Below are positions 1,921 through 25,234 of a DNA stretch of 30,940 nt, piece after piece (within the stretch, counting starts at the first letter, position 1; each line of letters begins with the position of its first letter). Origin of the DNA: a virus; the IMG/VR virus record IMGVR_UViG_3300006925_000078, positions 1 through 30,940 of that record; one strand, given 5' to 3'. Under the pieces are notes generated by a model that was not told the DNA's origin, did not search any database, and saw nothing but the letters and a program-made list of their open reading frames with translations. The position numbers were made by a program, and so were the translations under genes.

Positions 1921-2319
1921 AATTCTTTTAATAGAGAATCCTAATTCAATTGCTTCTTTTGGATGTTCCTCAATATACATGTGACATTGCCTACATACAG
2001 ACAACCATGTACTTACTTTTAAATGATTTTCACCCCTCCCTTGTTTATGATGAACATCAGTTGATGCTCCTGTACAACAAGGTAAAGCGGCTTGACACAT
2101 TGGATTCTCTTCCATAAACTTTCTTCTAAGTTTACTGTAAGCTGAATCTAATGCTACCATCATTTTTGATTTTTTATTAATGGGTTTCCTTTGTAATGGT
2201 TTTTTAACTTCTTTTGATTTATACCAGCAACTTTTGCAATAACGGCTTCCTTTATCATTTTTCCAGATAAATTGTTCCGTATTGCAATTGTTACATAGTT
2301 TCTTTTTCTGCTTAATCAT
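1918..2319 (-). CDS. HNH-type protein with N-terminal zinc ribbon
   Basis: This 133-aa protein has two metal-binding parts. Residues 9-31 hold CNNC and CKSC pairs (a treble-clef or ribbon). Residues 75-113 hold a Cys cluster, the HHKQGR motif (His90-His91) and a C-x2-CH motif, the usual arrangement of HNH nucleases with a structural zinc. The expected activity is metal-dependent DNA nicking or cleavage, for example in recombination, replication or host DNA attack. The length (133 aa) and its place in an operon, rather than inside another gene, argue against a simple homing endonuclease. The start ATG overlaps the upstream stop (ATGA). The specific substrate is unknown. Confidence 0.75.
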   Translation of the reverse strand: MIKQKKKLCNNCNTEQFIWKNDKGSRYCKSCWYKSKEVKKPLQRKPINKKSKMMVALDSAYSKLRRKFMEENPMCQAALPCCTGASTDVHHKQGRGENHLKVSTWLSVCRQCHMYIEEHPKEAIELGFSIKRI

Positions 2320-2828
2320 TTTAACGTAAGATAATTTCTAGGCAGTAGCCCTTTCTTCATATAAAACAAGATTAAATCTTCATATTTTATTCCAAGATCT
2401 TTAAAACTAATCTTGTTAATAACAGTAGGATCTGTCTCATCTATAGGAAACGCTGCAAGAGCACGACCAAGTGGTGTTCCTGTAAATATACTAAATATTG
2501 GCTGAACTTTCTTAGCAGTTATAACTTGTTTCCAAGCATTAACTTCTCTTTGTCCTCTTTGCCATACTTTTTTTATTCTTCTTGCTTTGTCCCAATGAAG
2601 TTTACTCCTTTCTTCTGGAGTATATACATTAAGTCCATGTAACACTCTTTTAAATAAAAAGTGTTGTGTGGGATTAAGTTTAGTGTAATCAAGGCACTGA
2701 GCCATGATTTCAGGTTGTAATTGATATTCACTTAGTATACCTAAATACTCATAACGTGACTTACGTTTCTCAATCTCATTAATTTGTCTTTCAATTCTAA
2801 GGATTTCTTTTTGTTCATTAGTTAGCAT
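2316..2828 (-). CDS. Conserved-looking hypothetical protein (170 aa)
   Basis: The protein begins with a charged helical stretch (residues 1-25) and has a basic middle (KARRIKKVWQRGQREVNAWKQ at about 83-103) that could bind nucleic acid. Its C-terminal segment carries LGIKYEDLILFYMKKGLLP. There are no catalytic motifs, signal peptide or membrane segments. It is translationally coupled to the HNH gene by an ATGA overlap, so the two may act together. It is the first gene after the terminator at 2854-2886, so it probably has its own promoter in 2829-2853 or depends on readthrough. I do not recognise the family. Confidence 0.65.
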   Translation of the reverse strand: MLTNEQKEILRIERQINEIEKRKSRYEYLGILSEYQLQPEIMAQCLDYTKLNPTQHFLFKRVLHGLNVYTPEERSKLHWDKARRIKKVWQRGQREVNAWKQVITAKKVQPIFSIFTGTPLGRALAAFPIDETDPTVINKISFKDLGIKYEDLILFYMKKGLLPRNYLTLK

Positions 2829-7204: not shown

Positions 7205-7299
7205 AATGTAATAGTACAATGCTCTACAGCTTTAGGTGAGTTCAATATTGCGGGTAATATAATACTACTCTTTATATAGATACATAGAGAGAAGAACAT
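7201..7299 (-). CDS. Possible tiny peptide (32 aa), weak
   Basis: A short frame starting MFFSLCIYIKSSIILPAIL ends with a TGA that overlaps the ATG of the 113-aa gene (ATGA), the coupling used elsewhere in this operon. The N-terminal 20 residues are hydrophobic. Its C-terminal codons are formed by the leader repeat, however, and the sibling repeat at 6841 does not encode a comparable peptide. The coupling may therefore be accidental. Confidence 0.25.
   Translation of the reverse strand: MFFSLCIYIKSSIILPAILNSPKAVEHCTITL
7211..7233 (-). repeat. Leader repeat, copy 2
   Basis: Second copy of the element at 6841-6863 (20 of 23 identical). On the leftward strand it reads AAAGCTGTAGAGCATTGTAC and then TAT, and lies six bases upstream of the 113-aa gene start, so both copies sit at the same distance from an ATG. 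Confidence 0.6.
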
Positions 7300-7960: not shown

Positions 7961-8255
7961 TTGTTAAAAATTTAAGTTATACATTATGGTGGGGTACACC
8001 ACCGTCAATTAATTGGAGGGGAGCCGTAGCCTATGACATCTTGAAAATGCCATACACAAAACTTTTGCAGGGCCGGGGGGCAGAGGACTAAATAATATAT
8101 ATAGTTTATGGACTCAGAAATTAAAAATTAAAAAAATTATTTTTTGTTTCACTCTTTTTTTTAGTGTATTGCCTGTATGTTAATTGTCATCTCTCTGGTA
8201 ATTCTGTTTTAGTATAATAATTTAATTTTGTATATTGATTATATAAACTACACAC
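7961..8255. promoter_or_regulatory. Divergent control region between leftward and rightward blocks
   Basis: A 295-base gene-free region between oppositely directed operons. Leftward leader: GGTGG-(6)-CCACC hairpin at 7988-8003 and an 8-bp hairpin TATGGCAT-(7)-ATGTCATA at 8032-8054, whose G-U pair is valid only on the leftward strand. A G-run island (8070-8090, GGGCCGGGGGGCAGAGG) stands out from the AT-rich surroundings. Next come A/T tracts at 8120-8165, then a rightward promoter-like motif at 8227. The leftward promoter was not identified with confidence. The region is also a plausible place for an origin or a master switch, but no iterons were seen. Confidence 0.55.
8227..8245 (+). promoter_or_regulatory. 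Phage promoter-like motif, degenerate copy
   Basis: TTTGTATATTGATTATATA shares its first 11 bases with the strict copy at 18419. It lies 10 bases before the ATG of the first rightward gene, which would leave a very short leader. Confidence 0.4.
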
Positions 8256-9036: not shown

Positions 9037-9044
9037 TATATTTG
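9037..9044 (+). promoter_or_regulatory. Possible Bacteroidota -7 element
   Basis: TATATTTG matches TAnnTTTG 27 bases before the ATG of the coiled-coil gene, in the only sizeable gap (73 bases) of this part. A matching -33 element is not obvious. Confidence 0.35.
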
Positions 9045-18329: not shown

Positions 18330-18418
18330 GCTTAATTAAGAAGAAAAAATATAGATAGCTATATACTGCACAAAATGATTTATGTTGTATGCATTTCTTA
18401 AGTTTATTTGTAAAAATG

Positions 18419-18437
18419 TTTGTATATTGTATATGTA
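18419..18437 (+). promoter_or_regulatory. Phage late-promoter-like motif, copy 1
   Basis: TTTGTATATTGTATATGTA lies in the 139-base gap after the portal gene, 31 bases before the ATG of the scaffold-like gene. It agrees with the copies at 23852 and 25216 in at least 17 of 19 bases. It differs from the host TAnnTTTG form, so it may be read by a phage-directed polymerase. Confidence 0.65.
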
Positions 18438-18468
18438 AGAATTAACAATTACAAAAACCAACAATAAA

Positions 18469-19758
18469 ATGGCAACAGATACTAAAACAGTAGAGAGTAA
18501 AGTTACTCAAGAAAACATTGATTTAGATAGCCTTTTTGACGGAGCCGCTGGAGCAGATAGTGTAACAGTACCAGAAGAAAGCAAACCTAAGTCAGTATTT
18601 AGTAAACCAACTAAAGAAGCAGATTTTTCTTTTACTGAAATAGAAGAAGAAAAAGAAGTAACAAAAGAAGTTGAAACAGAAGCATCAGCTGAAGTAGATA
18701 CAGAAGAAAAAAAAGCAGATGATGCTAAAACTACAGAAGATGCAGATGATATATTTGATGCATTAGAAGTAGATGAAGCAGATGAAGTAGAAGATAAGAA
18801 AGTTAAAAGAGGAAGAAAGAAAATTTCTGGAATAGGTGATGTATTTAACAAGCTTATAAAAGATGATAAAATTGTTCCTTTTGATGATGACAAATCTTTT
18901 GATGATTATTCTGCTAAAGATTGGGAGGAATTAATAGAAGCTAACTTGGAAGAAAAGGCAAACCAAGTTAGAAGAGAAACTCCAAAACAGTTCTTTGAAA
19001 GTTTGCCGCAAGAACTCCAAATAGCAGCACGTTATGTGGCTGATGGTGGTACTGATTTAAAAGGATTATTTTCAACTCTAGCACAAGCTGAAGAAAAAAA
19101 GAGCTTAGATGTTAAAAAAGAAAGTGATCAAGAAGTAATAATCAGAGATTACCTACAAGCTACAGGATATGGTGATGCTGAAGAGATTGCAGAAGAAATT
19201 GAAATCTGGAAAGATTTAGGTAAGCTTGAAAGTCAAGCTTCAAAGTTTAAACCTAAATTGGATAAGATGCAAGAAAAAGTTTTAGCTAAAAAACTTGAAG
19301 AGCAGGAAATGCGCAAGGCACAGCAAGAACAAGCTTCAAAGCAATATATGGAGAACGTATATAATACTCTTAAAGAAGGTAGCTTAGGAGAATTAAAAGT
19401 TGATAGAAAGACACAGTCTATGCTATACAACGGATTAGTTCAACCAAATTATCCTTCAGTAAGTGGAAGAAATACGAACTTGTTAGGTCATTTGCTTGAG
19501 AAGTATCAGTTTGTTGAACCAAACTATACATTGATTTCTGAAGCTCTATGGTTACTATCAGATCCAGATGGTTATAAGACCAGAATAATGGAGAAGGGTG
19601 CACAGAAGAGTGTAGAAAGCACAGTAAGAAAGTTAAAGACTGAACAAAGCAATAGTGGAGGATCATCTCTTGGAGTACAAGAGCGTGAGACAGAAGGTAG
19701 AAAAAAGTCTACCAAGAAAAAGTTACCTAGAAGTAACAACATATTTAAAAGATTTTAG
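18469..19758 (+). CDS. Scaffold-like protein preceding the major capsid protein (429 aa)
   Basis: The N-terminal 120 residues are acidic and disordered-looking (EEEKEVTKEVETEASAEVDT), then a folded helical region follows (DYSAKDWEELIEANLEEKA, FFESLPQELQIAARYVADGG), then a coiled-coil stretch (KLDKMQEKVLAKKLEEQEMR). The protein ends in a basic tail (RKKSTKKKLPRSNNIFKRF). An acidic or helical rod with a basic end directly before the MCP is the usual arrangement of a capsid scaffolding protein, which binds coat subunits during procapsid assembly. It shares a promoter and terminator with the MCP. No protease motif is seen. The role is inferred from layout, not homology. Confidence 0.68.
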   Translation: MATDTKTVESKVTQENIDLDSLFDGAAGADSVTVPEESKPKSVFSKPTKEADFSFTEIEEEKEVTKEVETEASAEVDTEEKKADDAKTTEDADDIFDALEVDEADEVEDKKVKRGRKKISGIGDVFNKLIKDDKIVPFDDDKSFDDYSAKDWEELIEANLEEKANQVRRETPKQFFESLPQELQIAARYVADGGTDLKGLFSTLAQAEEKKSLDVKKESDQEVIIRDYLQATGYGDAEEIAEEIEIWKDLGKLESQASKFKPKLDKMQEKVLAKKLEEQEMRKAQQEQASKQYMENVYNTLKEGSLGELKVDRKTQSMLYNGLVQPNYPSVSGRNTNLLGHLLEKYQFVEPNYTLISEALWLLSDPDGYKTRIMEKGAQKSVESTVRKLKTEQSNSGGSSLGVQERETEGRKKSTKKKLPRSNNIFKRF

Positions 19759-19809
19759 TAACAAGAATAAATAACAATTAATAATTAACTTAAATAACAA
19801 TTAACAATT

Positions 19810-21429
19810 ATGGCAACTCCTGTATTAAACAATGGAATTTTCCTAAGAGATACTGCTTACAAAGCGAGCTCTCATGTTGATTCTTATCACCTAACCCAAA
19901 TGCTTGGATCTTCTGAGCCTATGGATATGGGACCAGTTGATCTTTGGGCAATGACCCAAAAGGTAGAAATGCCTTTGTATCAAATGGCTTCTTTTGGTGG
20001 AAAGAACACAATCATGGTAGACAACGCGCGTGGGGAGTATAAATGGCAAACTCCAATCGCTCAAGATTTACCTTTTGTTGTAGCTGACATTGAGCCAGCA
20101 AATGACACAAAAGGTGTAGATGGTACTACATTCAAGATTAAAGTTTCAAAAAGAAGCTTTGGTCATGGTGATATCATTACTTATGACAAGTACAACGGTT
20201 TAGAATTGTACATTACTGCAGATGATATTATCCCTGCAGGTGATGGATACATCTACACTGTACAACTTGTAAACAATAACAGTGCAGCATCATTAGATAA
20301 CGCATACTTAGCTCCAGGAACTAAATTCTTTAGAAAAGGTTCTGCAAGAGGTGAATATGGTGAAAGATTCTCTGATATTGAAACTGGTTCTGGATTCCGT
20401 GAGTTCTACAACTTTGTTGGTGGAGCTGAGGCACATGTACACTATTCTATTTCTAGCCGTGCTGATCTTATGATTAAAGGTGGTTTGAATGCTGATGGTA
20501 CTGTACCTGTAACAGAGATCTGGAGAAACTTTGACCAAGATCCAAACAATCCTTCTGTATCATCAATTGATGAGTTGGTAGCTGGAATGGGAAAAGCAGG
20601 TGCTAGAGAAGCATTTGAAGATGGACGTTTGTCTAGAACTTTCGTTACAAACATGGAAGCTGCTCACTTGAGCAAGATTGCAAATGATATTGAAACTTAC
20701 CTAATGTGGGGTAAAGGTGGAAAAGTAAAACAAGATGGACCAGATGATATTAGATTATCTGTAGGTCTTTGGTCTCAGTTAGATAACTCTTTCAAAAGAG
20801 TATATAACAAGTCTGCTTTCTCACTTGATATGTTCAAGTCTGAGCTATACAACTTCTATCAAGGTAAAGTTGAGTTCAAAGGGCCAGACCCAAGTAGACA
20901 ACTTGTTGTACAAACAGGTATTGGTGGAATGCAATTAATCAACAAAGCTATTGCTGATGAAGTATATGGTTCTGGATTAGTTCAAAACGCTAGTGATATT
21001 GGTGCAGTAAAAGGTTCAGGAATGGATTTAGATTTCGGTTTTGCTTACACAAGCTTTACTATTCCTTTCCTTGCTAACGTTAAGTTTGTACTTAACCCTG
21101 CATTTGATAATCTTCACACAAATGATGTAGAGAATCCATTAATTGATGGACGTCCTTTAAGCTCTTATAGCTTCATTATCTTTGATGTGACAGAAAATGG
21201 AAATGATAACATTCACTTATTGAAGTTATCTTGGGATAATCAACTTAAGTGGTTCTACCAAAATGGTACTATGGACTACATGGGAAGAACTCAAGGTTTT
21301 GCTTCTACAGGTAACTTTAATGGTTATAGAGTTTATATGACTCAAACCATGCCAGCTATCTGGGTGAAGGATCCAACCAAAGTATTAAAAATTGTAATGA
21401 GAAATCCTGTAACAGGAGGTTCATTCTAA
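19810..21429 (+). CDS. Major capsid protein, HK97-fold (crAss-like type)
   Basis: This 539-aa protein starts MATPVLNNGIFLRDTAYKAS and has the length, position and composition of crAss-like major capsid proteins: an N-arm, a long beta-rich core with ISSRADLMIKGGLNADGT, a helical SIDELVAGMGKAGAREAFED stretch, and a C-terminal axial part ending MTQTMPAIWVKDPTKVLKIV. It should form the icosahedral shell. Codon use is visibly more biased toward AAC, TAC and TTC than its neighbours, as expected for the most expressed gene. It is followed 16 bases on by a strong terminator, and no promoter motif lies in the 51-base gap before it. The fold is inferred from family likeness. Confidence 0.85.
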   Translation: MATPVLNNGIFLRDTAYKASSHVDSYHLTQMLGSSEPMDMGPVDLWAMTQKVEMPLYQMASFGGKNTIMVDNARGEYKWQTPIAQDLPFVVADIEPANDTKGVDGTTFKIKVSKRSFGHGDIITYDKYNGLELYITADDIIPAGDGYIYTVQLVNNNSAASLDNAYLAPGTKFFRKGSARGEYGERFSDIETGSGFREFYNFVGGAEAHVHYSISSRADLMIKGGLNADGTVPVTEIWRNFDQDPNNPSVSSIDELVAGMGKAGAREAFEDGRLSRTFVTNMEAAHLSKIANDIETYLMWGKGGKVKQDGPDDIRLSVGLWSQLDNSFKRVYNKSAFSLDMFKSELYNFYQGKVEFKGPDPSRQLVVQTGIGGMQLINKAIADEVYGSGLVQNASDIGAVKGSGMDLDFGFAYTSFTIPFLANVKFVLNPAFDNLHTNDVENPLIDGRPLSSYSFIIFDVTENGNDNIHLLKLSWDNQLKWFYQNGTMDYMGRTQGFASTGNFNGYRVYMTQTMPAIWVKDPTKVLKIVMRNPVTGGSF

Positions 21430-21445
21430 TATATACTTAATAACT

Positions 21446-21479
21446 AAAAAGGAGGTGGGTAAAACTTCCTCCTTTTTTT
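21446..21479 (+). terminator. Intrinsic terminator after the major capsid gene
   Basis: AAAAAGGAGG and CCTCC followed by TTTTTTT flank a 12-base loop, 16 bases after the MCP stop. The GGAGG/CCTCC core with A/T extension and T-tract is a clear rightward terminator. Confidence 0.85.
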
Positions 21480-21521
21480 ATTTTTAATGTGAGTTAAGTG
21501 TTATTCTCCTCAAATAACTAT

Positions 21522-21584
21522 AGTCAGGTAAATCCTGGCTTTAGAAATATTAATAATAATTGTAGATAAATATCTACTTTTGAG
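21522..21584 (+). promoter_or_regulatory. Hairpin plus operator-like palindrome and promoter before the 338-aa gene
   Basis: A 7-bp hairpin AGTCAGG-TAAAT-CCTGGCT (21522-21540) is followed by an inverted repeat GTAGATA-AA-TATCTAC (21562-21577). The right arm of the repeat merges into TACTTTTG (21575-21582), a match to the Bacteroidota -7 form TAnnTTTG. This suggests a host-type promoter with an overlapping protein-binding site, unlike the 19-bp motif used by the neighbouring units. Confidence 0.5.
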
Positions 21585-21622
21585 TTGAAAACAAACATTA
21601 TTAATTTTTAAAAACCAAAAAA

Positions 21623-22639
21623 ATGAGTGATTACACTATTGTAGAAAAATATCAGCTTGGCAAAAATAATGCTATTGCTGTAAGACCGTACTTTAACCCA
21701 AGCAGACAAAACATGGGGCTTGAACAATATGGTATGGCACTTCATGAAGGAGTATGGCATGAAGAATCTTTAGCATGTCTAGAACTAAATGGAGTTAAAA
21801 GATATGTTACTGGACTAAATGAATTTGCACCAGATGTAAAGATGTTACCTCCAGGAGATAAAGAAGTAAAAGTAAAAGAGATAAGAAAAGTAGTTGCTCA
21901 ATTAGAAGCTGAATTAGCGTCTAATGTCATAGATCTTGAAGATAAAGATTTTTGGAATAAAGTAACATTATTAAAACCAGACAATGATAAGTTCTGGTCA
22001 AGAATAAGCCTAAGATGTGGTAATGATCCAGTATTCTTAGATCCTGTAAAAGATCCATATGATCTTATAAAGATATATGCTATAAATGCAGGTGGATTTT
22101 CAATGGTAGGTAAATCATTGAAAGAAGCTAAGAAAGCTGTAAATCCACCAAAGTTTTATTTAGACCAACTAGAAGAAACCATTAGTGAAAGAACAGAGTA
22201 TACTAAGCTGAGAAATAAAGCTTTAGTTGCTTTACAAAATATGTATGATACTGATACAACTAAGTTGATGTATGTTGCAAAGTGTGTAGATTTAGAAAGT
22301 GTTCAATACACAAAGTCTACACCAAATGACATAATGTACGAAAATATGGATATGTACATTAACGGTGAAGGAACAGAAGGAAATAGAAAAAGAGCATCTA
22401 AGCAATTTTTAGAAGCATCTAATAGTTCTATGGAAGATCTTAAAATCAGAGCATTAGTAAAAGATGCTATGTACTACAGATTCTTAGTTCCTAAATCTTC
22501 AGGTTGGATTGAGTCAATGGATAGTTCAGAAAAACTAGGTAAAAGATCTGGTGAAGTAATTGAATATCTTAAAGATCCAGGTAATGAAGATACATTGTTA
22601 AGTTTACTATCTAAAGTAGAACCTTATTGGAACTCATAA
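21623..22639 (+). CDS. Structural protein of unknown role (338 aa)
   Basis: A soluble protein beginning MSDYTIVEKYQLGKNNAIAV, with a conserved-looking front half (LHEGVWHEESLACLELNGVK, GLNEFAPDVKMLPPGDKEVK) and a helical second half (RNKALVALQNMYDTDTTKLM, RKRASKQFLEASNSSMEDLK). No enzyme motif, Cys cluster or signal peptide is present. Its place right after the MCP and before the ring protein makes it a likely virion or head-completion protein, or a capsid accessory. It opens a three-gene unit with its own promoter region. I do not recognise a named family. Confidence 0.7.
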   Translation: MSDYTIVEKYQLGKNNAIAVRPYFNPSRQNMGLEQYGMALHEGVWHEESLACLELNGVKRYVTGLNEFAPDVKMLPPGDKEVKVKEIRKVVAQLEAELASNVIDLEDKDFWNKVTLLKPDNDKFWSRISLRCGNDPVFLDPVKDPYDLIKIYAINAGGFSMVGKSLKEAKKAVNPPKFYLDQLEETISERTEYTKLRNKALVALQNMYDTDTTKLMYVAKCVDLESVQYTKSTPNDIMYENMDMYINGEGTEGNRKRASKQFLEASNSSMEDLKIRALVKDAMYYRFLVPKSSGWIESMDSSEKLGKRSGEVIEYLKDPGNEDTLLSLLSKVEPYWNS

Positions 22640-22650
22640 CTTAACATATA

Positions 22651-23352
22651 ATGAATAACTCAACTCTACAAATTAAAATAAAACAAAGGCTTAATAAGCT
22701 TTCTAGCAATGATTTTGATAACATTGAATGTTGGCAAATTGTAGAGGCATTTAATAAAGCTCAAGTTGAATGGGTAAGACGTCAGCTTCACGGTAATAAT
22801 ATGTACCGTGAAGGTGATGAGATGTCTAAGAGAAGAATAGATGATCTTCAAATACTTTTAACAGAGGTAAACTTACCTGGTTTTTCTACAAATGATTATT
22901 TTGAATCAACAGCTATACCAGATAACTATATGGAATTTAAAAGGATATCTGCTTTTGCTACAAGTGATTGTTGTCCTGATCCTAGATCAATGACAGTTTA
23001 CTTAGCAGAAGAAGCTAATGTAGATTTAATTTTAAGAGATCCTTTAAAAAGACCAGATTATGAATGGGGAGAAACATTCTGTACTTGGATAGGTAATGAT
23101 ATAAGAGTATATAGAAGAGATTTTACTATTACAGATGTTGATTTAACTTACTATAGACAACCAAGACGTATAGAAATACTAGGTTGTCAAAATCCATTTG
23201 ATGGTACTGCAACTGGAACTCAAGTTGAATCTGAGTTTAAAGATGATATAGTAGAAGTATTAATAGATGAAACTGCATCTTTAATTGCAGGTGACATAGA
23301 AAACTTTAATCAGTATCAAACTAATCAACAAACAGCAGAAAGAAATAATTAA
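22651..23352 (+). CDS. Head-tail ring/neck protein (P22 gp4-like class)
   Basis: This 233-aa protein has helices at the N-terminus (CWQIVEAFNKAQVEWVRRQL), a middle beta part (DYFESTAIPDNYMEFKRISA, MTVYLAEEANVDLILRDPLK) and the motif VDLTYYRQPRRIEILGC, which I associate with the neck/ring proteins of crAss-like and other marine Bacteroidota podoviruses. The C-terminus is helical (EVLIDETASLIAGDIEN). It would form a dodecameric ring under the portal that joins head and tail. It starts 11 bases after the 338-aa gene, and its stop runs into the next start (TAATG). The neck role is inference from motif recall and position. Confidence 0.68.
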   Translation: MNNSTLQIKIKQRLNKLSSNDFDNIECWQIVEAFNKAQVEWVRRQLHGNNMYREGDEMSKRRIDDLQILLTEVNLPGFSTNDYFESTAIPDNYMEFKRISAFATSDCCPDPRSMTVYLAEEANVDLILRDPLKRPDYEWGETFCTWIGNDIRVYRRDFTITDVDLTYYRQPRRIEILGCQNPFDGTATGTQVESEFKDDIVEVLIDETASLIAGDIENFNQYQTNQQTAERNN

Positions 23353-23831
23353 TGGATACGTATAAAAGACCTTTAAAAGCCAAAGCTACGGGTAAACTAT
23401 CTAGACCATCAACCAAAAAAGTTATGGGTACTAGATCTAATGAAATGAAAGAAGTAGATGCAAAGACAGCATCATTAGTTGTTGAAATAATGAATGCACG
23501 TACAAGCTTTCATAAATTACATTTACAAGTAACAGGTGATGGTTCTTTTGCACAACATAAAGCATTAAATGAATTATATGATTCATTACCTGATTTAGTA
23601 GATACTATAGCAGAAGGATATCAAGGTGCTTGTGAAGTAATATTAATGTATCCAGATAAAGCACCTGCAACTTTAACAAATGTAGATGGTGCTTTAGATT
23701 ATATGAGAATGCTTACATCTCAGATAGATGAATTACAATACTGTATGCCTCATTCTGAAATAGTAAGTAATCTAGATTTAATAAAAGATGAAATTAATTC
23801 AGCTAAGTATAAACTATTATTCCTTAGCTAA
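23352..23831 (+). CDS. Dps/ferritin-like four-helix protein (159 aa)
   Basis: After a basic, disordered N-terminal tail (residues 1-34: RPLKAKATGKLSRPSTKK) comes a helical domain with the Dps/ferritin-like signature at residues 52-92. It reads SFHKLHLQVTGDGSFAQHKA, then LNELYDSLPDLVDTIAEGYQ. His57 matches the His of the Dps HW motif, and His69, Asp81, Asp84 and Glu88 fall on the ferroxidase-site pattern. Four helices can be drawn across 36-158. The basic tail recalls the DNA-binding tail of Dps. Phage families of this kind are known (DUF5856-type), with unproven function. Being in the neck-protein operon, it may be a virion or DNA-condensing protein, an iron or redox protector, or a helical-bundle structural protein. 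Confidence 0.68.
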   Translation: MDTYKRPLKAKATGKLSRPSTKKVMGTRSNEMKEVDAKTASLVVEIMNARTSFHKLHLQVTGDGSFAQHKALNELYDSLPDLVDTIAEGYQGACEVILMYPDKAPATLTNVDGALDYMRMLTSQIDELQYCMPHSEIVSNLDLIKDEINSAKYKLLFLS

Positions 23832-23851
23832 TTGCTTATATGAAAAAATAT

Positions 23852-23870
23852 TTGTATATTATATATGTAC
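23852..23870 (+). promoter_or_regulatory. Phage late-promoter-like motif, copy 2
   Basis: TTTGTATATTATATATGTA starts 20 bases after the Dps-like stop and ends 42 bases before the ATG of the 405-aa gene. It differs from copy 1 at one base and from copy 3 at one base. Confidence 0.65.
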
Positions 23871-23912
23871 AAACGTACAATAACTTTATTTATAATTTAA
23901 AATTGAAAAACA

Positions 23913-25130
23913 ATGGCTTATTTTAATCATGCTTTTTATAAAAGCTTTTTAGCAGTTGACGCAAGTGCTGCTAATGGAACAAAAACCCAAGACTTAGCTG
24001 CAGGACAACTTGCACTAGTTGATGGAAAAACTTGGAAAGCAAACACTGGTGCTTTAGCAGTACCTGGTTTGGCTTACTTAGTACAAGGATCTTTACACGC
24101 AAGTGACACTATTGGTGGAAACGGCAATCATGGTGGTTATGCAGAATCAGTTAAATCAAAAGGAATCAATCCTAAGTATTTAACAAGAATCTGGGAATCA
24201 GAATGTATTAATGCAACTCCAGCAAGTGTAACAGTTGCAGTAGGATCAAAATGTCATCCATGTGGTGAAAACCTAATGTTACGTTTAGACGTAAAAGGTG
24301 CACCAGCTTTACGTTTCTTAAACCGTAATGCATATGCTATTGGAGATTCTATCGGAGAAGGTAGTGATCCAGGTTTATGTTGTATTGAAGGACAAGAATT
24401 TCTTGATCCAGCAGTAGCGTTAGCAAAAATTGGTAGAATGATAATTGCAGATCCTATTGTTGCTCCATTCATTAAAGAAGGTGGAATTGTAGTAACAGTA
24501 GCTGGTGTAGCTACATCATATACATTTGCTGAAATAGTAGATGGAACTTATACTCCATCAACAGATCCAGTAGGTGACGAAGTAACTGCAGCAATTAGTT
24601 TTCAAGGTGCTTATGTAGATACTAAGTTTGGAGACTGTTCTTTTGATACACGTGATTATCACGGAAAAGAACCAGTTCAATTAGTAGCTTCAATGCTAGA
24701 TGAAACAGGAAATCCATGTAATGACTGTGGTACTGTAACAAGTACAGCAGGTACAATGCAACAAACTTCTGGAGAAGGTGTACTTAGAAATATTCTATTA
24801 ACTGAATCTTACGGACAAGCACCATTCCACCAAGGAAATGTAGATGCAATACGTATGCGTGAGATTGAAGGTTCTGAAGAAGTAATTTCTGCAGTAGATC
24901 GTTCTGCTCTATACAAGACTTATTATGTACAACACAGCATTCCACGTTTGAACAATGCAACAAGTGTATTTGATAATGATCAATATGTATATGAGGTGTT
25001 TGTAAAATGTGATGATACGGCAACTCAAGCTGCAGTAGAAGGTTTACTTGATGCTTTAGTTGATGCAGCTAATCAATCTGGTAATCCACTAGTAAGAGAA
25101 ACTGCTATTGATCAACAAACTAATCCATAA
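23913..25130 (+). CDS. Probable major virion protein, monocistronic (405 aa)
   Basis: The protein starts MAYFNHAFYKSFLAVDASAA and is Gly/Ala/Val-rich and beta-like, with nine Cys placed mostly in pairs (KCHPCG, LCCIEG, CNDCG). Late segments include TYYVQHSIPRLNNATSVFDN-type strands and a helical end (VEGLLDALVDAANQSGNPLV). It has its own promoter motif and terminator and a codon bias like the MCP, which suggests a highly expressed structural protein. Candidates are a tail-tube, head-decoration or fibre-like major component. Similar proteins recur in Bacteroidota phages, as I recall, but I cannot name a function. There is no signal peptide. Confidence 0.72.
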   Translation: MAYFNHAFYKSFLAVDASAANGTKTQDLAAGQLALVDGKTWKANTGALAVPGLAYLVQGSLHASDTIGGNGNHGGYAESVKSKGINPKYLTRIWESECINATPASVTVAVGSKCHPCGENLMLRLDVKGAPALRFLNRNAYAIGDSIGEGSDPGLCCIEGQEFLDPAVALAKIGRMIIADPIVAPFIKEGGIVVTVAGVATSYTFAEIVDGTYTPSTDPVGDEVTAAISFQGAYVDTKFGDCSFDTRDYHGKEPVQLVASMLDETGNPCNDCGTVTSTAGTMQQTSGEGVLRNILLTESYGQAPFHQGNVDAIRMREIEGSEEVISAVDRSALYKTYYVQHSIPRLNNATSVFDNDQYVYEVFVKCDDTATQAAVEGLLDALVDAANQSGNPLVRETAIDQQTNP

Positions 25131-25162
25131 GAATAGGTTAAAATAAAAAATCTATTATAAAC

Positions 25163-25194
25163 AAAAGGTGAGGGAGAAATCCTTCACCTTTTTT
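25163..25194 (+). terminator. Intrinsic terminator after the 405-aa gene
   Basis: GGTGAGGGA-GAAA-TCCTTCACC (25167-25188) is a 9-bp stem with one G-U and a GAAA tetraloop. It is flanked by AAAA and followed by TTTTTT, 36 bases after the stop. The stem length and GAAA loop repeat the design of the leftward terminator at 2854. Confidence 0.88.
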
Positions 25195-25215
25195 ATTTTC
25201 AAATCTCCTTGATTT

Positions 25216-25234
25216 TTTGTATATTATCTATGTA
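25216..25234 (+). promoter_or_regulatory. Phage late-promoter-like motif, copy 3
   Basis: TTTGTATATTATCTATGTA begins 22 bases after the terminator T-tract and lies 27 bases before the ATG of the 183-aa gene. It probably drives the whole tail-tip and fibre unit, since no later copy is seen. Confidence 0.65.

Follow-up and report, generated by a model that had tools for sequence, protein, structure and literature searches.

The stretch of DNA analysed here, called the window below, is an IMG/VR virus record (IMGVR_UViG_3300006925_000078) of 30,940 bases; it is a fragment of a crAss-like phage in which a 19-bp motif, TTTGTATATTRTMTATGTA, punctuates the structural genes and, judging from its sequence context, is very probably a promoter. 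The window carries features of membership in Crassvirales, namely a Crass-type major capsid protein of 539 amino acids (aa) encoded at 19810..21429 on the + strand (Pfam Crass_capsid, E 5.6e-32), a terminase large subunit and a portal protein (PHROGs). The motif is exact at 18419-18437, 23851-23869 and 25216-25234 and has three mismatches at 8227-8245, so that the three exact copies and the degenerate one of the original prediction are real, although one of them had been placed a base too far, at 23852 instead of 23851. When up to three mismatches are allowed, the window holds four matches, all on the + strand, against 0.23 expected, and 0 of 100 shuffles reached four. All four copies lie in intergenic gaps, as had been claimed, in a window whose intergenic share is about 17%, and each stands upstream of an ATG. 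The distance from motif end to ATG, predicted as 27-42 bases, measured 31, 43 and 27 bases for the exact copies at 18419, 23851 and 25216, and is 10 bases for the copy at 8227. Both predicted terminators are present, the first at 21450 instead of 21446. The proposed late units of one to five genes were partly right; the unit from gene 21623, behind the 21450 terminator, is without a copy. The features are as follows, with negative positions counted from the predicted +1 and scores taken from a position weight matrix (PWM).

8227..8245, + strand: degenerate copy of the late type where the rightward block starts (three mismatches, PWM 18.7); T-12 at 8231, predicted +1 at A8243; a host-type TAATTTTG (8223-8230) overlaps its left end.
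18419..18437, + strand: -7 region of a putative late promoter, exact match, upstream of the genes for the scaffold-like protein (18469) and the major capsid protein (19810); T-12 at 18423, predicted +1 at G18435; AAG, not TTG, at the -33 place (18400-18402).
18469..19758, + strand: scaffold-like gene, an open reading frame (ORF) of 429 aa, the first gene after the 18419 promoter; its role is suggested by its place, and it has no PHROGs match.
19810..21429, + strand: major capsid gene (Pfam Crass_capsid).
21450..21470, + strand: intrinsic terminator of 7 pairs behind the major capsid gene.
23851..23869, + strand: putative late promoter, exact match (PWM 29.4 bits), upstream of gene 23913, which presumably encodes the capsid auxiliary protein; TTG at 23832-23834, 20-bp spacer, T-12 at 23855, predicted +1 at G23867.
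23913..25130, + strand: presumed capsid auxiliary protein, an ORF of 405 aa (MAYF...) at the gene-order place of crAss001 gp36, the reference for this protein (PMC10172136); no family match at E 0.001 in PHROGs or Pfam.
25163..25192, + strand: intrinsic terminator of 13 pairs, followed by a T-rich tail.
25216..25234, + strand: putative late promoter, exact match (PWM 26.0), directly behind the intrinsic terminator and before gene 25262; TTT at 25197-25199, T-12 at 25220, predicted +1 at G25232.

Relatives were collected by a capsid-protein scan. At least 600 stretches matched, each of them encoding a relative, and the best 80 were retained; further scans added more distant loci, giving 170 in all. 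Capsid identity to the window sorts 166 of the 170 into three groups.

Group A: capsid identity of at least 80%; 78 loci, the window among them.
Group B: capsid identity of 73-80%; 79 loci.
Group C: capsid identity of 27-31%; 9 loci, including the named phage Lbo-JY46.

Loci of A and B mostly cover structural regions; together they number 157, include the window and one contig twice (L082 and L158), and hold 150 distinct capsid genes. In a midpoint-rooted capsid tree of 15 of the 78 A, 15 of the 79 B and all 10 C taxa with crAss001 and phi14:2, A is one clade and A and B together lie on one side of a branch with support 98/95; C comes next, on a fork of its own that is weakly supported (90/69), and B does not form a separate clade. 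For the comparison of junctions among the 170 loci, four were dropped for want of a capsid match and four for want of an upstream gene, and in one tally 12 of 61 loci were dropped with a PWM score under 8. Site counts use score cut-offs of 11 or 12 for the four genomes and of 10 for groups A and B, the latter with distinct sequences only.

We then asked where the motif stands in three relatives of about 115 kb (G001, G002 and G003), which were read whole together with the window, using a matrix derived from 119 sites of loci L005-L084, including stretches of the three genomes later scanned. The best sites are intergenic, lie on the late strand and precede several of its genes, among them the scaffold-like gene, the counterpart of gene 25262 and the presumed auxiliary capsid gene; G001 also has a weaker counterpart of the 8227 copy (12.9 bits) before a gene that, compared by eye, is similar. 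Among sites of at least 12 bits on the late strand, 30 are intergenic, one lies in a same-strand gene and three in opposite-strand genes; the other strand has six, two of them intergenic. Copies inside genes at equal frequency, which had been named as a possible objection, were thus not seen (30 intergenic vs 4 in genes on the late strand), and the motif recurs at the same junctions and on the late strand in most close relatives, where the original prediction had suggested looking for it. Sites of at least 12 bits occur in 29 of 92 late-strand gaps vs 0 of 92 on their opposite strand, the fairer control for a model trained on late-strand gaps, and in 1 of 89 gaps before minus-strand genes, with 4 of 89 on the strand opposite those. 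Unsupervised expectation-maximization (EM) on the 92 late-strand gaps gave TTTTTG-TATATT as the best motif (log-likelihood 166 vs 56 in shuffled gaps). On the 89 gaps before minus-strand genes it gave only T-rich, terminator-like patterns (93 vs 57), and a motif of the replication-gene strand was rejected on that account. With five seeds and all loci, the TATATT seeds led to TTTTTG-TATATTAT in A and to TTTG-TATATT-A in B; in C they drifted to TAA.TTTG, which is the host form.

The host -7 box, as described for Flavobacterium johnsoniae, reads T-12 A-11 H H T-8 T-7 T-6 G-5 with the start 4-5 bases later, and T-6 and G-5 are nearly invariant in 241 promoters, a set itself chosen by motif search (PMC6847099). 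Aligned to this box, the phage core reads T-12 A T A T T-7, and the following pair differs. At -6/-5, the 131 distinct group-A sites have AT (107), GT (16), AA (5), TT (2) or GA (1) and never TG; A-6 accounts for 85%, G-6 for 13%, A or G at -6 for 98% and T-5 for 95%. The 67 group-B sites have AT (33), AA (18), TT (6), GA (6), GT (3) or AG (1), with T-5 in 63%, and the window copies have AT or GT, and GA at 8227. T-12 A-11 and T-8 T-7 are present in 99-100% of the 131 and 67 sites, partly through site selection. TTG is commonest at offsets -23/-22, in 25 of 131 A sites (the next offset, -17, has 11) and 14 of 67 B sites (others at most 3), and at -23 in 7 of 31 sites of the four genomes (others at most 3); this peak therefore gives a spacer of 19-20 bp. 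A host-type -33 TTG is a property of the class, and single copies differ, the window copy before the scaffold gene having AAG. The statement that the motif is not the host TAnnTTTG form applies at -6/-5 only, because the -33 TTG/TTT, the 19-20 bp spacer and T-12 A-11 .. T-8 T-7 are host layout.

Since matrix-chosen sites could bias the bases at -6/-5, we also ran a free-position test with TTG-N19/20-TAHHTT followed by any two bases. TG filled these places in 12 of 14 matches in crAss001 and phi14:2 (both strands), 8 of 10 in Lbo-JY46 and 3 of 3 in the group-C loci; AT filled them in 30 of 38 matches in group A and 25 of 35 in group B, with TG in 0 of 38 and 0 of 35. On the opposite strand, matches were not deduplicated and had mixed bases; they numbered 32 for group A, 15 for group B, 5 for group C, and 3 each for Lbo-JY46 and for crAss001 with phi14:2. 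What distinguishes A is thus which bases fill the pair and not how often the pattern matches. Over long stretches of the late strand, AT made up 14 of 25 matches and TG 3 in A (11 matches on the opposite strand), and AT 8 of 21 and TG 6 in B (opposite strand 5); TG made up 16 of 18 in C (opposite strand 1) and 9 of 9 in crAss001 and phi14:2 (opposite strand 1). Because host-type TG sites also occur in the A and B long stretches, the switch at -6/-5 appears to concern the late class, with host-type sites coexisting in both groups.

One host-type site lies in the window itself.

9037..9044, + strand: host-type -7 box TATATTTG, before gene 9072.

In 10 of 12 A/B records, relatives of gene 9072 are preceded by TAHHTTTG at a distance of 22-35 bases, and in the gap behind the capsid gene this box occurs in 32 of 52 distinct group-A gaps, with 1.8 expected and 0 of 52 on the opposite strand. 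At the scaffold-gene junction, scored with loose patterns within 110 bases so that some matches are due to chance, group A (window included) has the late type in 72 of 76 loci, both types in 3 and the host type only in 1; group B has the late type in 50 of 77, both in 10, the host type only in 2 and neither in 15; and group C has a host-type box in 4 of 9 loci (two with identical capsids) and the late type in 0 of 9. The same genome would thus hold two promoter-like classes, a late type and a host type. The host-type boxes argue against a host with a changed primary sigma factor and favour a canonical host, because such a box precedes relatives of gene 9072 in 10 of the 12 records. Shine-Dalgarno (SD)-like signals showed no clear excess over shuffles in the window (0 of 15 vs 0.2), G001 (3 of 50 vs 1.8), G002 (1 of 50 vs 0.6) or G003 (1 of 48 vs 0.8), which agrees with a Bacteroidota host; crAss001, for comparison, has 9 of 50 vs 3.7. 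A Campylobacter-like sigma-70 promoter has a T-tract and a G before TATAAT; it was rejected as a host clue because the SD-like signals are not in clear excess.

The motif in its longer form is largely restricted to phages of this clade. The exact 21-mer TTTTTGTATATTATNTATRTA was found in at least 120 IMG/VR stretches vs 2 for the reversed pattern. Among the matches listed, only 3 of 122 sites lie inside a predicted gene and 107 have a start codon within 80 bases; 52 of the 122 precede genes whose best match is the G001 counterpart of gene 25262, and 8 precede relatives of gene 25262. With up to one mismatch, the 21-mer was not enriched in 395 host-phylum genomes (six with one match each, none exact, vs six for the reversed pattern); these were drawn from the phylum of a Chitinophagaceae metagenome-assembled genome (MAG), taken as Bacteroidota, the host phylum being inferred. 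With up to three mismatches, long stretches of each of eight group-A records have 3-6 late-strand matches (0-2 on the other strand, 0-1 reversed), and G412, of group B, has four; three group-C records, crAss001 and phi14:2 have none. Because three other B records have 0-1, the full 21-mer is a mark of A, and in most of B only the core is kept.

At E 1e-8, 23 of the 120 listed exact-match loci have no protein in common with the clade set. A spread of the motif to unrelated phages was rejected for the commonest sort, those with MDILNFISWIK genes, which are accessory regions of the same clade (the G412 capsid is 77% identical, with 55 related proteins). One contractile-tailed phage has the motif, and 40 kb of it hold a strong site (19.4) and a weak one (10.4). 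At L245, the exact 21-mer (7223-7243) stands behind a hairpin with a T-run and before the baseplate-hub gene of a contractile-tailed phage; L227, L240, L278, L281, L302 and L305 are also contractile-tailed 21-mer loci, and a 40-kb stretch of one such record has only four proteins in common with the crAss-like set. Seven further 21-mer loci (L219, L235, L242, L280, L284, L298 and L313) share no protein with the clade set. Of four matching contigs from assembled genomes, two are in one Campylobacteraceae MAG and the others in Pseudomonadales and Chitinophagaceae MAGs, and such matches are taken as binned phage contigs. L195 (WLWP01000004.1), a 114,697-base contig with a crAss-like capsid gene in a Pseudomonadales MAG, is probably a phage binned with the wrong host; with up to two mismatches allowed, the assembly has four motif matches, all on contig C2 of record G012, which is probably the same contig.

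The leader of the auxiliary-protein mRNA provides a separate line of evidence on the start site, which probably lies at the G or A twelve bases after T-12.

23866..23879, + strand: inverted repeat TGTAC-AAAC-GTACA, a potential RNA stem-loop from about the predicted 5' end, G23867, of the auxiliary-protein mRNA.

In group-A auxiliary-gene leaders, the inverted repeat begins at the predicted +1 or one to two bases before it. A fixed test, requiring at least one G-C pair and a start at index 10-12, was positive in 29 of 30 of these leaders vs 1.9 in shuffles; other group-A junctions gave 10 of 101 vs 5.8, and group B gave 0 of 6 for the auxiliary gene and 6 of 61 vs 1.9 for other junctions. A stem of at least four pairs with its 5' base at index 12 (+1) is present in 39 of 41 distinct leaders. 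Its pairs vary in a compensatory way, pair 3 being AT in 30, GC in 5, CG in 3 and GT in 1, pair 4 CG in 21, AT in 15, TA in 2 and TG in 1, and pair 5 CG in 18, AT in 6 and TA in 1. As control anchors in the same leaders, index 0 gave stems just as often (39 of 41) owing to the TATATTATATA core, and the remaining anchors did so in 4-26 of 41. Because index-0 stems are equally frequent, the weight rests on the G-C-anchored test and the compensatory changes. We read the repeat as a putative 5'-terminal stem-loop that also supports the assigned +1 and probably protects the mRNA.

Collectively, these results suggest a late promoter, belonging to a clade of aquatic crAss-like phages, with a -33 TTG/TTT, a spacer of 19-20 bp, the core T-12 A T A T T-7 followed at -6/-5 by an AT-rich pair, and often a T-tract and G-13 just upstream of the core. 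Its likely reader is the core RNA polymerase of the host, since the promoter retains the -33 element and the spacing found in promoters of host sigma factors, and published statements that late crAss-like transcription is probably by the host polymerase (PMC10136315, PMC8375218) point the same way. We lean towards a phage specificity factor that changes the reading of the -7 region, since T-6 G-5 has been lost, the motif is not enriched in host genomes and host-type boxes coexist with it. On balance, we favour late promoters read by host RNA polymerase with a phage-altered -7 specificity. A sigma-like or sigma-modifying protein supplied by the phage would make this change late in infection, and once that protein had altered the polymerase, T-6 G-5 would no longer be required. 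The copies would start units of the scaffold and capsid genes, of the auxiliary capsid protein and of gene 25262 onward, and the terminators at 21450 and 25163 would end the first two. Only tentatively do we go further and propose that a phage-encoded factor unlike known sigma factors re-specifies the Bacteroidota polymerase at -6/-5, and that the late set of one clade moved from TAHHTTTG to TATATTAT with -33 element and spacing kept. The original prediction of a phage-specific late promoter fits a class that is late-strand, intergenic and phage-specific, while its separation from the host form does not stand; of the two readers it offered, a phage sigma-like factor is compatible with the data, although none was found, and a stand-alone phage polymerase is disfavoured.

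Several observations weigh against the favoured mechanism or the strength of its support. Pfam searches of seven phage records found no sigma-like gene (Sigma70_r2 none above the cut-off, with one at E 0.02, and Sigma70_r4 none), though a divergent sigma would be missed; Pfam and PHROGs revealed no specificity factor in selected proteins of the clade; and the candidate family of window 2316-2828 had no PDB match and an uninformative AlphaFold model (pLDDT 50). The -33 element is moderate, scaffold-gene copies carrying AAG/AGG or other letters, and just 2 of 11 host-type sites before gene 9072 relatives show a TTG at -33. The number of free-position matches in A is barely above that of the opposite strand (38 distinct vs 32 not deduplicated; 35 vs 15 in B), and the switch is less clean over long stretches, given the TG matches there (3 of 25 in A, 6 of 21 in B). 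The motif is weaker in B, where G428, G430 and G431 have as few late-strand 21-mer matches as the reversed controls. In the five-seed EM of A, a T-rich, terminator-like pattern outscored the motif (1066-1099 vs 817-926), the unit at 21623 starts without a copy, and most site counts come from related phages and hence are not independent.

The same geometry could belong to ordinary promoters of the host primary sigma factor, read without any phage factor if the holoenzyme tolerated AT at -6/-5 through the -33 element, the T-tract and G-13. Besides the geometry, with TTG 19-20 bp upstream, T-12 A-11, T-8 T-7 and the predicted +1 spacing resembling the -33 TTTG / -7 TAnnTTTG promoter of F. johnsoniae and of crAss001 and phi14:2 gaps, the host-type boxes in the same genomes and the three variants around TAnnTTTG in Flavobacterium psychrophilum (PMC9723704) are in keeping with this account. 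It is nevertheless unlikely: T-6 G-5, nearly invariant in the 241 F. johnsoniae promoters (PMC6847099), is mostly replaced by AT, the T-tract and G-13 are added, TG is absent from the free-position matches of A and B while related phages keep it, and the 21-mer is not enriched in the 395 genomes of the phylum. An F. psychrophilum box also bears on the possibility that a host alternative sigma factor was recruited for the late genes, for SM5 (TAnnTTGY, -12 to -5) has a G and then a pyrimidine at the same -6/-5 place (PMC9723704), where the late motif of A has A or G and mostly T-5. We consider this quite improbable, because SM5 has G-6 where the motif mostly has A-6, and the 21-mer form is phage-restricted, with GTA around +1 in group A and no enrichment in host genomes.

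A giant RNA polymerase of the phage itself, newly made in infection, is similarly doubtful as the reader. Very large ORFs lie at the expected place of the transcription block, one with a DFDID stretch, blastp ties two of them to crAss001 and phi14:2 proteins, and crAss001 gp49/gp50 have been suggested as possibly acting on late genes (PMC8375218); yet the identity of these ORFs is weakly supported, as the blastp link of the largest was not reproduced by phmmer and no polymerase family was matched (for the largest ORF, the last 1,999 residues were scanned). A -33 element at host spacing also speaks against it, as do published views that late genes use the host polymerase (PMC10136315, PMC8375218). 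The phi14:2 virion RNA polymerase, whose system resembles this one in having giant ORFs, has been reported for early genes (PMC10136315), whereas the minus-strand (replication) genes here are without the motif (1 of 89). With the host layout kept, a sigma-bearing RNA polymerase is more likely than a stand-alone phage polymerase. That the motif is no promoter at all and serves as an RNA processing site, an operator or a packaging or replication signal is very improbable: the covarying inverted repeats at one junction and the existence of a second intergenic element would suit such a role, but the -33/-7 spacing is intact, one copy stands directly behind a terminator, and a host-type box occupies the corresponding junction in 4 of 9 group-C loci, together with the TG-to-AT contrast.

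Late promoters of T4-type phages carry a TATAAATA box read by gp55 on the host core polymerase. An AT-rich late box used by host core polymerase with a phage sigma-like factor would be a working likeness to the mechanism favoured here, in which host polymerase has a phage-altered -7 specificity; the group-A consensus is TATATTAT, not TATAAATA, the -33 element is kept and no sigma-70-like gene was detected. Our literature search of open-licence papers returned no description of late promoters of crAss-like phages, and the word 'promoter' is absent from the main text of the crAss-like genome papers and review searched. The analysis provides a testable promoter model, TTG-N20-TAHHTTTG, for two cultured crassviruses, crAss001 and phi14:2, and a clade in which mainly two promoter bases are rewritten, which localises what a phage factor would change in the Bacteroidota polymerase. 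The motif may also mark late operons in metagenomic phage genomes, and the hairpin at one capsid gene is independent support for the start site.

Other intergenic elements were noted along the way. The gap before gene 21623 (window 21540-21590) has an inverted repeat such as GTACATAATTATGTAC, followed by TTTTG, the arms of which seem by eye to covary; the conserved hairpin with TACTTTTG there was rejected as a clear promoter, with no TTG at -33 in 5 of 5 sites. A second element, TAGCTATATACTGC, stands just behind gene ends, at window 18356 (+ strand) and about 3913 (- strand); of the 23 copies of its core, TAGCYATATA, in group A, 16 are intergenic, vs 0 copies of the reversed control.

Among the records, Leptolyngbya phage Lbo-JY46 (PP438436; L106, L333 and L334) was deposited with a cyanobacterial host. 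Its capsid groups with crAss-like phages and it carries Bacteroidota-type promoters, with TG in 8 of 10 -33/-7 sites, so that host assignment looks doubtful. Record G415 (245,646 bases; L331 and L332) contains two distinct crAss-like structural regions separated by about 125 kb, whose terminase and capsid share 74-80% identity with group-A proteins, and is either a joined genome pair or an unusual phage.

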